A stretch of 64,000 nt of DNA from the NCBI GenBank assembly GCA_030827135.1, contig JAURFE010000006.1, positions 62,001-126,000 of the forward strand, read 5' to 3'. How positions within the stretch are numbered: the first letter of the stretch is position 1; every line of letters begins with the position of its first letter. This DNA comes from Vicinamibacterales bacterium (GTDB taxonomy: Bacteria; Acidobacteriota; Vicinamibacteria; Vicinamibacterales; SCN-69-37). Position numbers and translations under genes: made by a program. Below, piece by piece: positions 5,971-44,982 of this stretch. The notes under the pieces were generated by a model. The model saw nothing but the letters and a program-made list of their open reading frames with translations, did not search any database and was not told where the DNA came from.

Positions 5971-7941
5971 ATGCTGACCCCTGGAGCCTACGAAGATCGC
6001 CAGAACCTGCAGTCGCGGCTCTTCGCGTTCCGCGTAGGCATCGTCCTGTCGTTTGTGCTGTTGGCGGTCACCTTCTGGACGCTGCAGGTGCTGCAGTACC
6101 AGCAGTACCTCGAGCGCGCCGAAAACAATCACATGCGGACGATCGAACTGCGCGCGCCCCGGGGCGTCTTGTTCGATCGCCACGGGGAAGTCCTCGTCCA
6201 GAATCGGCAGGCCTTCCGCATCGCGGTCGTCCGTGAGCAGACCGGCGGGGATCTGGAGGGCGTGCTGGTGCGCCTCGCCGCGATTACGGCGGTGGACGAG
6301 GCGACCGTGCGCGCGACCGTCAAGCGGCGCATGAACGAACCGTCGTTCCGGCCCATCCCCGTGATCGAGAACGCGACCGACACCCAGGTGGCCTCGGTAC
6401 TGGCGCGCGCGCTCGAACTGCCCGGCGTGGTCGTGGAACAGGTGCCGACCCGCCGGTATCCCGACAACGGACTCGCGGCCCATTTGTTCGGGTACGTCGG
6501 TGAAGTGCAGAAATCACAATTGCGGCCCGGGCTCGAGCCCGGTGCGATTGTCGGGCAGGCCGGCGTCGAGCAGGTCTACGACGAATGGCTCATCGGCGAA
6601 AACGGCAACCGGTTTGTCGTGGTGAACAGTCGTGGGCGCGAAATCGAGGAACTCGAGCACCAGGAACCCGTCGACGGCAGGCGGGTGCAGCTGACGATTG
6701 ATGCCGACCTGCAGCGCGCGCTCGAAGACGCGTTTCGCATCAAGGGCTTCAACGGCTCAGGCCTGTTTCTGGATCCACGCACCGGTGAAGTCCTGGCGAT
6801 GGCCAGTCTGCCGTCCTACGATCCCAACGAATTCGCGACGGGCATCGATCAGGCCAAGTGGCAGGCGCTGCTGGGGGATCCGCTCAAGCCCCTGCGCAAT
6901 CGCACCGTGCAGGGGACGTACGCGCCAGGGTCCACCTTCAAGATCGTCATGGCGCTGGCCGCGCTTGAGGAAGGCCTCATCACCCCGGAGACGTCGTATT
7001 ACTGTGCGGGGGCCAAGACCATTTACGGCAACTCCTTCGCCTGCAACAGACCTGGTGGCCATGGCCGCGTGAACCTCAGGCAGGCGCTCCAGCATTCGTG
7101 CAACGTGTACTTCTACACCCTCGGCGAAATGTTGAAGGTGGACACGATTCACAAGTGGGCCGACCGGCTGGGGCTGGTCGGCAGAACAGGCATCGATCTG
7201 CCGGCAGAAGATGAAAGCGTGATTCCGTCGGAAGCGTGGAAGCGCCGCCGGTTTGACGAACGGTGGTATCCGGGGGACACCATCTCGGTGGCGATCGGGC
7301 AGGGGTACGTCACGGTCACGCCCGTGGCGCTGGCCCGGATGATCTCCACGGTCGCCAATGGCGGTACCCTGATTACACCTCATGTCATTCGCGCCGTCGA
7401 CAAGGGAGCCGGGTGGGAACCGGTGGCCAGTCACACGACGGTGCCGCCGGTGGCGCTTAATCAGGACCTGCTGGGCGCGATTCGAGATGGCCTCTGGATG
7501 GCCGTCGACTCCGGCACGGCCCGCGGGGCCAGACTGCCCGGGTATGAGATCGCCGGCAAGACCGGGACGGCGCAGGTCATCTCGCTTGATGCGGCCAAAG
7601 CCGTGGCCGGACGCACCACGCGAGACTTGCGGCACCATGGCTGGTTTGTGTTCTTCACCCCGAAGGACAACCCGGAGGTCGCCGGTGTCGTGTTCGCCGA
7701 ACACGGCAGTTCGAGTGGGGCCGCCACACCCATCGTCCGTCACGTGATGGACACCTACTTCGCGAAGAAGGAGGGCCGCCCGCTCCCGAAGCTGGCGCCG
7801 CCACCCACAACACCTGCCGTGGCCCGCTCAACACCAGCGGGCCCTACGACACCCGTGGCCCGCTCAACACCAGCGGGCCCTACGACACCCGTGGCCCGCT
7901 CAACACCAGCGGGCCCTACGAGTGGAGGCGGCGTTCGGTGA
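5971..7941 (+). CDS. mrdA: Penicillin-binding protein 2 (elongasome transpeptidase) with repeat-derived C-terminal tail
   Basis: 656 aa. One N-terminal transmembrane segment (about 20-45), a PBP dimerisation domain (about 60-230) and a transpeptidase domain. Catalytic motifs are intact: S321-T-F-K324, S376-C-N and K530-T-G. It cross-links peptidoglycan during elongation together with RodA, MreC and MreD. The last 40 residues (about 617-656) are a tandem 12-residue repeat (ARSTPAGPTTPV) encoded by three 36-bp copies of the GTAG-head hairpin repeat seen elsewhere in the window. That tail lies beyond the catalytic domain and is probably tolerated. The stop overlaps the rodA GTG. Confidence 0.96.
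   Translation: MLTPGAYEDRQNLQSRLFAFRVGIVLSFVLLAVTFWTLQVLQYQQYLERAENNHMRTIELRAPRGVLFDRHGEVLVQNRQAFRIAVVREQTGGDLEGVLVRLAAITAVDEATVRATVKRRMNEPSFRPIPVIENATDTQVASVLARALELPGVVVEQVPTRRYPDNGLAAHLFGYVGEVQKSQLRPGLEPGAIVGQAGVEQVYDEWLIGENGNRFVVVNSRGREIEELEHQEPVDGRRVQLTIDADLQRALEDAFRIKGFNGSGLFLDPRTGEVLAMASLPSYDPNEFATGIDQAKWQALLGDPLKPLRNRTVQGTYAPGSTFKIVMALAALEEGLITPETSYYCAGAKTIYGNSFACNRPGGHGRVNLRQALQHSCNVYFYTLGEMLKVDTIHKWADRLGLVGRTGIDLPAEDESVIPSEAWKRRRFDERWYPGDTISVAIGQGYVTVTPVALARMISTVANGGTLITPHVIRAVDKGAGWEPVASHTTVPPVALNQDLLGAIRDGLWMAVDSGTARGARLPGYEIAGKTGTAQVISLDAAKAVAGRTTRDLRHHGWFVFFTPKDNPEVAGVVFAEHGSSSGAATPIVRHVMDTYFAKKEGRPLPKLAPPPTTPAVARSTPAGPTTPVARSTPAGPTTPVARSTPAGPTSGGGVR
7818..7920 (-). repeat. Three in-frame tandem copies of the GTAG-head hairpin repeat
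   Basis: Period 36 bp, starting at 7818, 7854 and 7890. Each unit carries GGCCCGCT, a seven-base loop, AGCGGGCC, then CCTAC, so the GTAG head points to the minus strand. The array encodes the C-terminal tail of PBP2 and keeps the reading frame (36 = 12 codons). The third copy ends just before the overlapping rodA start codon. Confidence 0.9.
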
Positions 7942-31580: not shown

Positions 31581-31646
31581 GTAGGGCGCGCTGGGTTTGA
31601 GCGCGCCGACGATGGCCGCCTGAAGTTCAGGCGGCCCTACGTGCCG
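31581..31646. repeat. Two GTAG-head hairpins in opposite orientation (BIME-like)
   Basis: First unit plus strand: GTAGGGCGCGCT, loop, AGCGCGCC. Second unit minus strand: GGCCGCCTGAA / TTCAGGCGGCC followed by CTACGT. The two stems differ completely but both pair. Located between an esterase remnant and a dehydrogenase promoter. Confidence 0.8.
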
Positions 31647-32757: not shown

Positions 32758-32778
32758 AACGCGCGTAGGTTGAATGTG

Positions 32779-33336
32779 ATGGAAGACATCATTCGCCAAC
32801 TGTTGACCGCCCTTGGGGAAGATCCGACCCGCGACGGTCTGAAAGAAACACCACGCCGGGTCGCGAAGTCCTTCGATTTCCTGACAAGCGGGTACCGCAC
32901 GGATCTCGACGACGTCATCAACAAGGCGTTGTTTGATGTCGAGTACAGCGAGATGGTCATCGTCCGCGACATCGACTTCTACAGTCTCTGTGAACACCAC
33001 ATGCTGCCGTTTTTCGGCAAGTGTCACGTGGCCTATCTGCCGTCGAAGAAGGTGATTGGTCTCAGCAAACTTCCGCGGATCGTCGACATGTTTGCCCGAC
33101 GCCTCCAGGTGCAGGAGCGGCTGACCGAGCAGATCGCCGATGCCATCACGTCGAAGATCGACCCCATCGGCGTGGCGGTCGTGATCGAAGCCACACACCT
33201 GTGTATGGCGATGCGCGGCGTCGAGAAGCAGAATTCCACCACCGTCACCAGTGCCATGCGCGGCACGTTCCGTGACGATCCCCGCACCCGCCACGAGTTC
33301 CTCGAACTGATCCGGCATCGCAAACAAGCGGAGTAG
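32779..33336 (+). CDS. folE: GTP cyclohydrolase I
   Basis: 185 aa, full length. Zinc ligands Cys71, His74 ([11 protein letters not shown]) and Cys142 (THLCMAMRG) are present, with the pterin-site [10 protein letters not shown]. It converts GTP to 7,8-dihydroneopterin triphosphate, the first step of folate and queuosine precursors. ATG 32779 is preferred over in-frame TTG 32770 and GTG 32776. An array of GC-rich octamers begins on the last base of its stop codon. Confidence 0.97.
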
Positions 33337-33418: not shown

Positions 33419-33424
33419 TATACT
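33419..33424 (+). promoter_or_regulatory. Candidate -10 box of a leaderless gene
   Basis: TATACT ends 6 nt before ATG 33431, with TTCAAG 17 nt upstream as a possible -35. No Shine-Dalgarno sequence. Confidence 0.65.
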
Positions 33425-33430
33425 GCAGAC

Positions 33431-34123
33431 ATGCTCAAAATTGCCGCCAGCGCTCTGCTGGCTCTGGCTGTGATCGTGCCCGATGGGTACGTAGGGCCCG
33501 CTGAACGTCAGTGGGCCGAGTACGTAGGGCCCGCTGAACGTGAGCGGGCCGAGTACGTAGGGCCCGCTGAACGTGAGCGGGCCGGCACCGCTCTGGCGCA
33601 GGTAACCAACGAGTTCACGTGTGCCGCGCAGCTGGGCACCGGCCTCAAGAGCAAACGCACCTTCTGCGACATCATCATCGGCACTACGCTCACCGACGGC
33701 GTCCGCATGTCGATTCCGGCGCACACCGGACCGACGACGCTGCGGTTTGACCTGCACAACCGGTATCCCATGGCGCAGGAGGGCGCGACGCCCGCCCAGA
33801 TGTATGCCAAACACACCGCAGTCGTCGCCGTGCTGAATCAGTTGGGAGACACGGTGGGCAAGGCGGCGGTCGCCCGCGAATTGCGGACCGATGTCGACAT
33901 CTTTGACCGCGTCGAGGGAGGCATCGGCCCCGGCGGATCGATCATGGTGGCGCCGGGACGACCTGAAGCGGTTGTGCTCGAGCTGCCGGAGTCCACGACC
34001 GCCATTGCCATCGTGGGCATCAGTCTCGAGGCGACGTCGCTGTCAGTGCAGGGGACGTTTGTCACGCCGGGCCGCCCGGTGGCCGTGGGCAGCAACTTCC
34101 GGATTGAGTACACGCGACGATAG
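33431..34123 (+). CDS. Secreted protein whose signal peptide is split by an in-frame repeat array
   Basis: 230 aa. Residues 1-19 are a typical signal-peptide n- and h-region (MLKIAASALLALAVIVPDG). Residues 20-52 are three 11-residue repeats (consensus YVGPAERERAE). Then comes TALAQ, a signal peptidase I site that would normally follow the hydrophobic core. The mature part (from about residue 57) is a beta-rich domain with FRIEYTRR at the end; I know no family. The insertion adds 33 charged residues between core and cleavage site, so export or processing may be altered. Confidence 0.75.
   Translation: MLKIAASALLALAVIVPDGYVGPAERQWAEYVGPAERERAEYVGPAERERAGTALAQVTNEFTCAAQLGTGLKSKRTFCDIIIGTTLTDGVRMSIPAHTGPTTLRFDLHNRYPMAQEGATPAQMYAKHTAVVAVLNQLGDTVGKAAVARELRTDVDIFDRVEGGIGPGGSIMVAPGRPEAVVLELPESTTAIAIVGISLEATSLSVQGTFVTPGRPVAVGSNFRIEYTRR
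33488..33586 (+). repeat. Three in-frame tandem copies of the GTAG-head hairpin repeat
   Basis: Period 33 bp, starting at 33488, 33521 and 33554. Each unit reads TACGTAGGGCCCGCT, a short loop, AGCGGGCC, GAG; the first copy has a G-T wobble (AGTGGGCC). Being a multiple of three, the array stays in frame and lies inside the signal peptide of the gene at 33431. Confidence 0.92.
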
Positions 34124-42615: not shown

Positions 42616-42716
42616 GTAGGGCGCGCTGACCTTGAGCGCGCCGTAACGTTGGCACGCTACAGTTCAGCGTGCCCTACGTACTGTGAGGCCGGCACGCTAC
42701 AGGTCAGCGTGCCCTA
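42616..42716. repeat. Three GTAG-head hairpins, one forward and two reversed
   Basis: Unit 1 (42616-42642, plus) has arms GGCGCGCT/AGCGCGCC. Units 2 and 3 (42651-42676 and 42691-42716, minus, 40-bp period) have arms GGCACGCT/AGCGTGCC. The arm changes are compensated so all three stems pair. Fills the gap between convergent genes. Confidence 0.88.
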
Positions 42717-42731
42717 CGTACTGTGAGTGCA

Positions 42732-44915: not shown

Positions 44916-44982
44916 GGCGCGCTACACCCCAGCGCGCCCTACGTACGCCCGTACGTAGGGCGCGCTGGGGTGTCAGCGCGCC
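44916..44982. repeat. Head-to-head pair of GTAG-head hairpins forming a near-perfect long palindrome
   Basis: Left unit (minus) 44916-44942 and right unit (plus) 44955-44982 face each other through TACGTAC and GTACGTA. The two copies are reverse complements apart from one indel, so the stretch could fold into one long hairpin or two short ones. The right edge touches the methyltransferase stop codon. Confidence 0.88.

Follow-up and report, generated by a model that had tools for sequence, protein, structure and literature searches.

A tandem array of GTAG-type REP elements in frame behind the signal-peptide core of a conserved protein in lake Acidobacteriota

We analyzed a 64,000-nucleotide stretch of Vicinamibacterales DNA (hereafter the window) in which three tandem 33-bp repeats lie within a conserved gene, between the hydrophobic core of a putative signal peptide and the mature domain. 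Each unit is a REP of the GTAG type and belongs to a GTAG REP/RAYT system. We consider it likely (probability roughly 0.8) that the linker of this gene received a REP array of probable RAYT origin before the window species and its sister species split from their common ancestor, that the array stayed in frame and was tolerated, and that the protein is still exported. The insert itself is most likely a tolerated, near-neutral passenger.

Results

The gene that carries the array is the downstream neighbor of folE; the features referred to below are the following, with a slash marking a candidate cut throughout the text.

32770-33336: folE, upstream neighbor of the host gene
33419..33424, forward strand: -10 promoter element TATACT, 6 nt 5' of the ATG; probable leaderless transcript
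33431..34123, forward strand: host gene, directly 3' of folE; putative exported protein of unassigned family, 230 aa from the ATG
33440..33478, forward strand: signal-peptide hydrophobic core, residues 4-16 (IAASALLALAVIV), assigned from the sequence
33461-33469, forward strand: A11-L12-A13, an A-x-A candidate cleavage site upstream of the array
33487..33519, forward strand: REP unit 1, GTAC-GTAG plus hairpin, encoding YVGPAERQWAE
33494-33505, forward strand: G-P-A/E in unit 1, candidate cleavage site
33520..33552, forward strand: REP unit 2, encoding YVGPAERERAE
33553..33585, forward strand: REP unit 3, encoding YVGPAERERAG
33590..33601, forward strand: ALA-Q motif, residues 54-57 (R-L-A-Q in the sister species)
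33602..34120, forward strand: conserved mature domain with two conserved Cys, predicted with low confidence to be mostly beta strand

TATACT or TATAAT stands 6-8 nt 5' of the start codon in 20 of the 30 orthologues examined, a conserved spacing that supports the ATG at 33431 as the true start; so short a distance between promoter and start also suggests that the message is leaderless. The only in-frame start codons are at 33431, 33470, 33476 and 33707, the last of which falls within the conserved domain; with no start between the array and this domain, translation has to run through the array, unless the domain begins in truncated form. Searches with the 175-aa mature domain detected homologues in the genomes of 75 of 100 relatives, a few of the matches being weak or partial. 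Profile searches of Pfam, NCBIfam and PDB gave no meaningful match to the protein, and the AlphaFold model of the mature domain was poor (pLDDT 49.5); an Rfam search of the window returned two tRNAs and nothing else. Between the window species and the sister species (G004), dN is 0.082 and dS 0.794 in the mature domain (dN/dS about 0.10), and the domain is under purifying selection.

The three 11-residue charged repeats that an earlier note on this DNA had described between the hydrophobic core and ALA-Q are confirmed as contiguous 33-bp units at 33487-33585, 91-94% identical to the first. Each contains a short imperfect palindrome, GGCCCGCT-N7-AGCGGGCC, with 8-bp stems and a 7-nt loop (within a 20-40 bp size range), which is perfect in units 2 and 3 and has one mismatch in unit 1. 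The tetranucleotide GTAG, at 33491, 33524 and 33557, forms one foot of each hairpin, as it does in most genome copies. Three matches to the unit were found in the window against none in 100 shuffles, far above chance, and the initial 170 nt of the message fold much more stably than their shuffled versions (z -5.6). The window has other REP copies, which seem to be intergenic, at 7821-7919, 31581-31607, 42616-42717 and 44916-44942; those at 7821-7919 comprise three units with a 36-bp period and were not counted as coding because the enclosing open reading frame looks spurious.

The family is dispersed through the genome in high copy. The 23-nt hairpin has 68 matches at up to three mismatches and none in the reversed control, in a count that lists both strands and may include a few near-perfect palindromes twice; a looser pattern of GTAG plus hairpin has about 270, against two in the reversed control. 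Copies occur singly, in tandem and as inverted pairs, the tandem and inverted arrangements being numerous. They are mostly extragenic: about 10 of the 168 copies examined lie within open reading frames with coding-like flanks on both sides, as judged on about 60 stretches rather than all 270 copies and by a simple codon model that misses some in-gene copies, the window array among them. The genome has two Y1 transposase genes. One, on contig C51, matches PF01797 above the cut-off (33.7 bits) and is closely flanked on both sides by GTAG-hairpin arrays; its orthologue in the sister species is 76% identical, and there too REPs closely flank both sides. This association suggests that the REPs are probably non-autonomous palindromic repeats spread by the RAYT (Y1 HuH) transposase of the lineage. 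The second Y1 gene (G000:C11, near 1080.3-1081.0 kb) is flanked not by REPs but by two identical long palindromic repeats (AAAAAGACGTCGGGTGTCTTTTTC..., at L059:1243-1266 and 1912-1935), an arrangement that brings to mind the TIRYT genes described from Acidobacteria (PMC3733652).

Matches to the REP family number 241 in the sister species and 0-1 in each of the congeners G001, G002, G003, G005 and G006. At the same place in the same gene, the sister species has six in-frame 33-bp units (VGPAEFERA repeats). The insert is absent from G001, G005 and G006, the three congeners with a readable N-terminus, in which the core runs straight into the domain, and from all other-genus orthologues examined. 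The right-hand borders of the two inserts match closely; at the left border the window species has about 17 bases more (GTGATCGTGCCCGATGG), which may, tentatively, be a decayed unit. Units are identical at 29-33 of 33 positions within a species and at 24-30 of 33 between species, as expected of unit-by-unit expansion with homogenization or of separate insertions. The sister-genome entry VFZF01000003.1 (L061) is labeled Acidimicrobiia, a label that is probably wrong, its nearest relatives being titled Acidobacteria.

The (-3,-1) rule was the sole basis of our cleavage-site readings. ALA-Q, taken by the earlier note as the cleavage site, stands 40 residues behind the core rather than a few, and is not conserved, because the sister species has R-L-A/Q; with Arg at -3, signal peptidase would not favor cutting there. 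The other congeners have no equivalent of ALA-Q. Nearer candidates are present: A-x-A at residues 11-13 precedes the array, with comparable motifs at the end of the core in the congeners, and G-P-A/E, 8 residues behind the core in the window species, follows it directly in the sister species (MLKVAASALLALALVGPA/EFERA, that is, LALALVGPA/EFERA). A cut after A13 would give a very short signal peptide of 13 residues; this and the 8-residue distance to G-P-A/E make an uncleaved anchor possible.

In most other-genus orthologues, the linker from core to conserved domain is 14-38 residues long, non-repetitive and not conserved in sequence; these linkers are often rich in Lys, Pro and Ala and commonly stand behind an AQ-type site, and one orthologue at a contig edge has no readable linker. 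Other genera thus come close to what the earlier note named as counter-evidence, a conserved non-repeat insert of the same size, but the sequence of their linkers is not conserved. The distance from the core to the first conserved Cys is mostly 10-38 aa without REPs, and 47 and 74 aa in the two REP carriers. The variable linker of the orthologues, the nearer cleavage candidates and the R-L-A-Q of the sister species together indicate that the array most likely adds length to the mature N-terminal linker and would leave export intact. Of the claim that a hairpin array was inserted into the signal peptide, the part that holds is the in-frame insertion at the N-terminus, which is missing from G001, G005, G006 and the other-genus orthologues examined and belongs to a mobile-type family spread across the genome; that it parted the core from the cleavage site is a weak reading, and the signal peptide is probably not split.

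In-frame REPs are present in other genes of the genome as well. The ApbE flavin transferase (L011:1184-2584, minus strand, and L107) has three of them, 30 bp apart, within the ApbE domain, where the sister species has one unit at the corresponding place and the congener homologues read have none. Others lie in a 2-oxoacid dehydrogenase E2 (lipoyl-E2), within the linker from its E3-binding domain to its catalytic domain, in the linker joining HEAT repeats to a cyclophilin domain, and in a linker ahead of an RDD domain. At the ccoN-ccoO junction of the cbb3 oxidase (L096:324-2972, at G000:C33:301423-304026, minus strand, and L115) there are about five units, and three in the sister species; the two genes form one continuous frame in both species and separate frames in G002, and the ccoN of G003 and of G005 ends independently. 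Same-strand unit spacing is a multiple of 3 in all seven in-gene intervals and in 6 of 26 elsewhere (p=0.0004), a test with some circularity, in that arrays that break the frame would have been left out of the in-gene class.

Discussion

In the history that we prefer, a REP would have entered the gene before the window species and its sister diverged from their common ancestor, landing immediately after the core of the signal peptide, where linker length already varied across the order. The sole stop-free forward frame of the unit (VGPAExERA) would have fallen in register, after which copy number would have shifted by whole 33-bp units, to three in the window species and six in the sister, with homogenization of the array within each species. 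The protein would still be exported, with a cut that may fall either ahead of the array, at A-L-A13, or within unit 1, at G-P-A/E, and in its mature form it would carry the repeats as a charged linker at the N-terminus. That the sister species carries six copies at the same site indicates that the gene tolerates the insert and that the signal peptide is probably not broken. A possible variant of this history is that each species acquired its insert separately, at a shared hot spot.

C-regions of signal peptides are normally only a few residues long. The earlier note had offered two outcomes for the gene, export through an unusually long c-region or misprocessing. For the former, in which signal peptidase would cut after ALA (residue 56), 40 residues beyond the core, the A-L-A/Q of the window species does obey the (-3,-1) rule, but the Arg of the sister motif, the nearer sites and the lack of an equivalent in other congeners make it quite improbable. 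Misprocessing and decay of the gene might be imagined because 99 bp inserted so close to an export signal could disturb that signal; this is very unlikely, since dN/dS is about 0.10 between two species that both bear the insert, the frame is open in both at two different copy numbers, and the promoter has been kept. An uncleaved N-terminal membrane anchor, with the repeats as a periplasmic stalk bearing the domain, has a small but real chance: the core has 13 residues, in the window species it is not immediately followed by a textbook cleavage site, and the repeats are charged and linker-like, but the sister species has its textbook-like G-P-A/E directly behind the core, and in many orthologues from other genera a clear AQ-type motif comes shortly after it.

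Two further readings concern the RNA. Di Nocera et al. (PMC3733652) suspect that many N-terminal REPs lie untranslated in the 5' region and owe their place in proteins to annotation errors; for the present array this is exceedingly unlikely, as zero start codons stand between it and the domain, and the stretch ahead of it shows conservation of both the signal-peptide codons and the promoter spacing. It is also improbable that the hairpins have been kept to regulate translation or mRNA stability of the probably leaderless message: the 5' end does fold well, but good folding is expected of any REP array, copy number and loop vary between the species, and other REPs sit in mid-gene linkers. An intact, exported protein with a lengthened linker is thus the reading that we favor.

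GTAG-type REPs and REPtrons have been defined by GTAG at one end, a 20-40 bp palindrome, hundreds of copies and a REP-flanked RAYT, and grouped in-frame REPs encoding 43-82 aa are known within genes of Thauera and Rickettsia conorii (Di Nocera et al. 2013, PMC3733652). The window family resembles these systems in its GTAG foot, palindrome, hundreds of copies, REP-flanked RAYT and grouped in-frame copies. Unlike the earlier intragenic cases, the window array lies between a signal-peptide core and a mature domain, occurs at the same site in two species with differing copy numbers, both in frame, and is hosted by uncultured lake Acidobacteriota. Rickettsia palindromic elements are likewise palindromic selfish DNA tolerated in frame in conserved protein genes (reviewed in PMC2229807); they measure 105-146 bp and no RAYT link is claimed for them in that review, whereas the window array consists of tandem 33-bp units with a GTAG foot. 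We rejected such an identity for the array because of its 33-bp GTAG unit and because its nearest named relatives are Acidobacteria MAGs. In the Yersinia RU-2/YPAL fusion YPO1552, an exported protein likewise owes part of its signal-peptide region to a small mobile repeat (PMC2229807), but there the 168-bp repeat partly forms the signal peptide, whereas the window repeats stand behind the hydrophobic core. Our searches of the open-access literature returned no account of REPs located behind the core of a signal peptide. Intragenic GTAG REPs and in-frame Rickettsia elements were thus already known; added here are the position behind the core, the whole-codon difference in copy number between two species, and evidence from selection that the gene works with its insert.

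More speculatively, and in a view that may well be wrong, the RAYT/REP system of this lineage could act as a generator of adjustable protein linkers, in which stop-free units settle in inter-domain linkers, as behind the signal peptide here, and change in copy number only by whole codons between species; unit 1 would have supplied a new signal-peptidase site, G-P-A/E, and in one case ccoN and ccoO would have been bridged to form a single frame.

What looked like a broken signal peptide thus becomes a clear example of a conserved exported protein that tolerates a selfish repeat. The lineage is bounded by two carrier species and three readable congeners without the insert, it has a candidate transposase, and copy number in it differs by whole codons. 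The case offers a natural test of how much sequence a Sec signal tolerates behind itself and, likewise, of the evolution of REP arrays as linkers in proteins.
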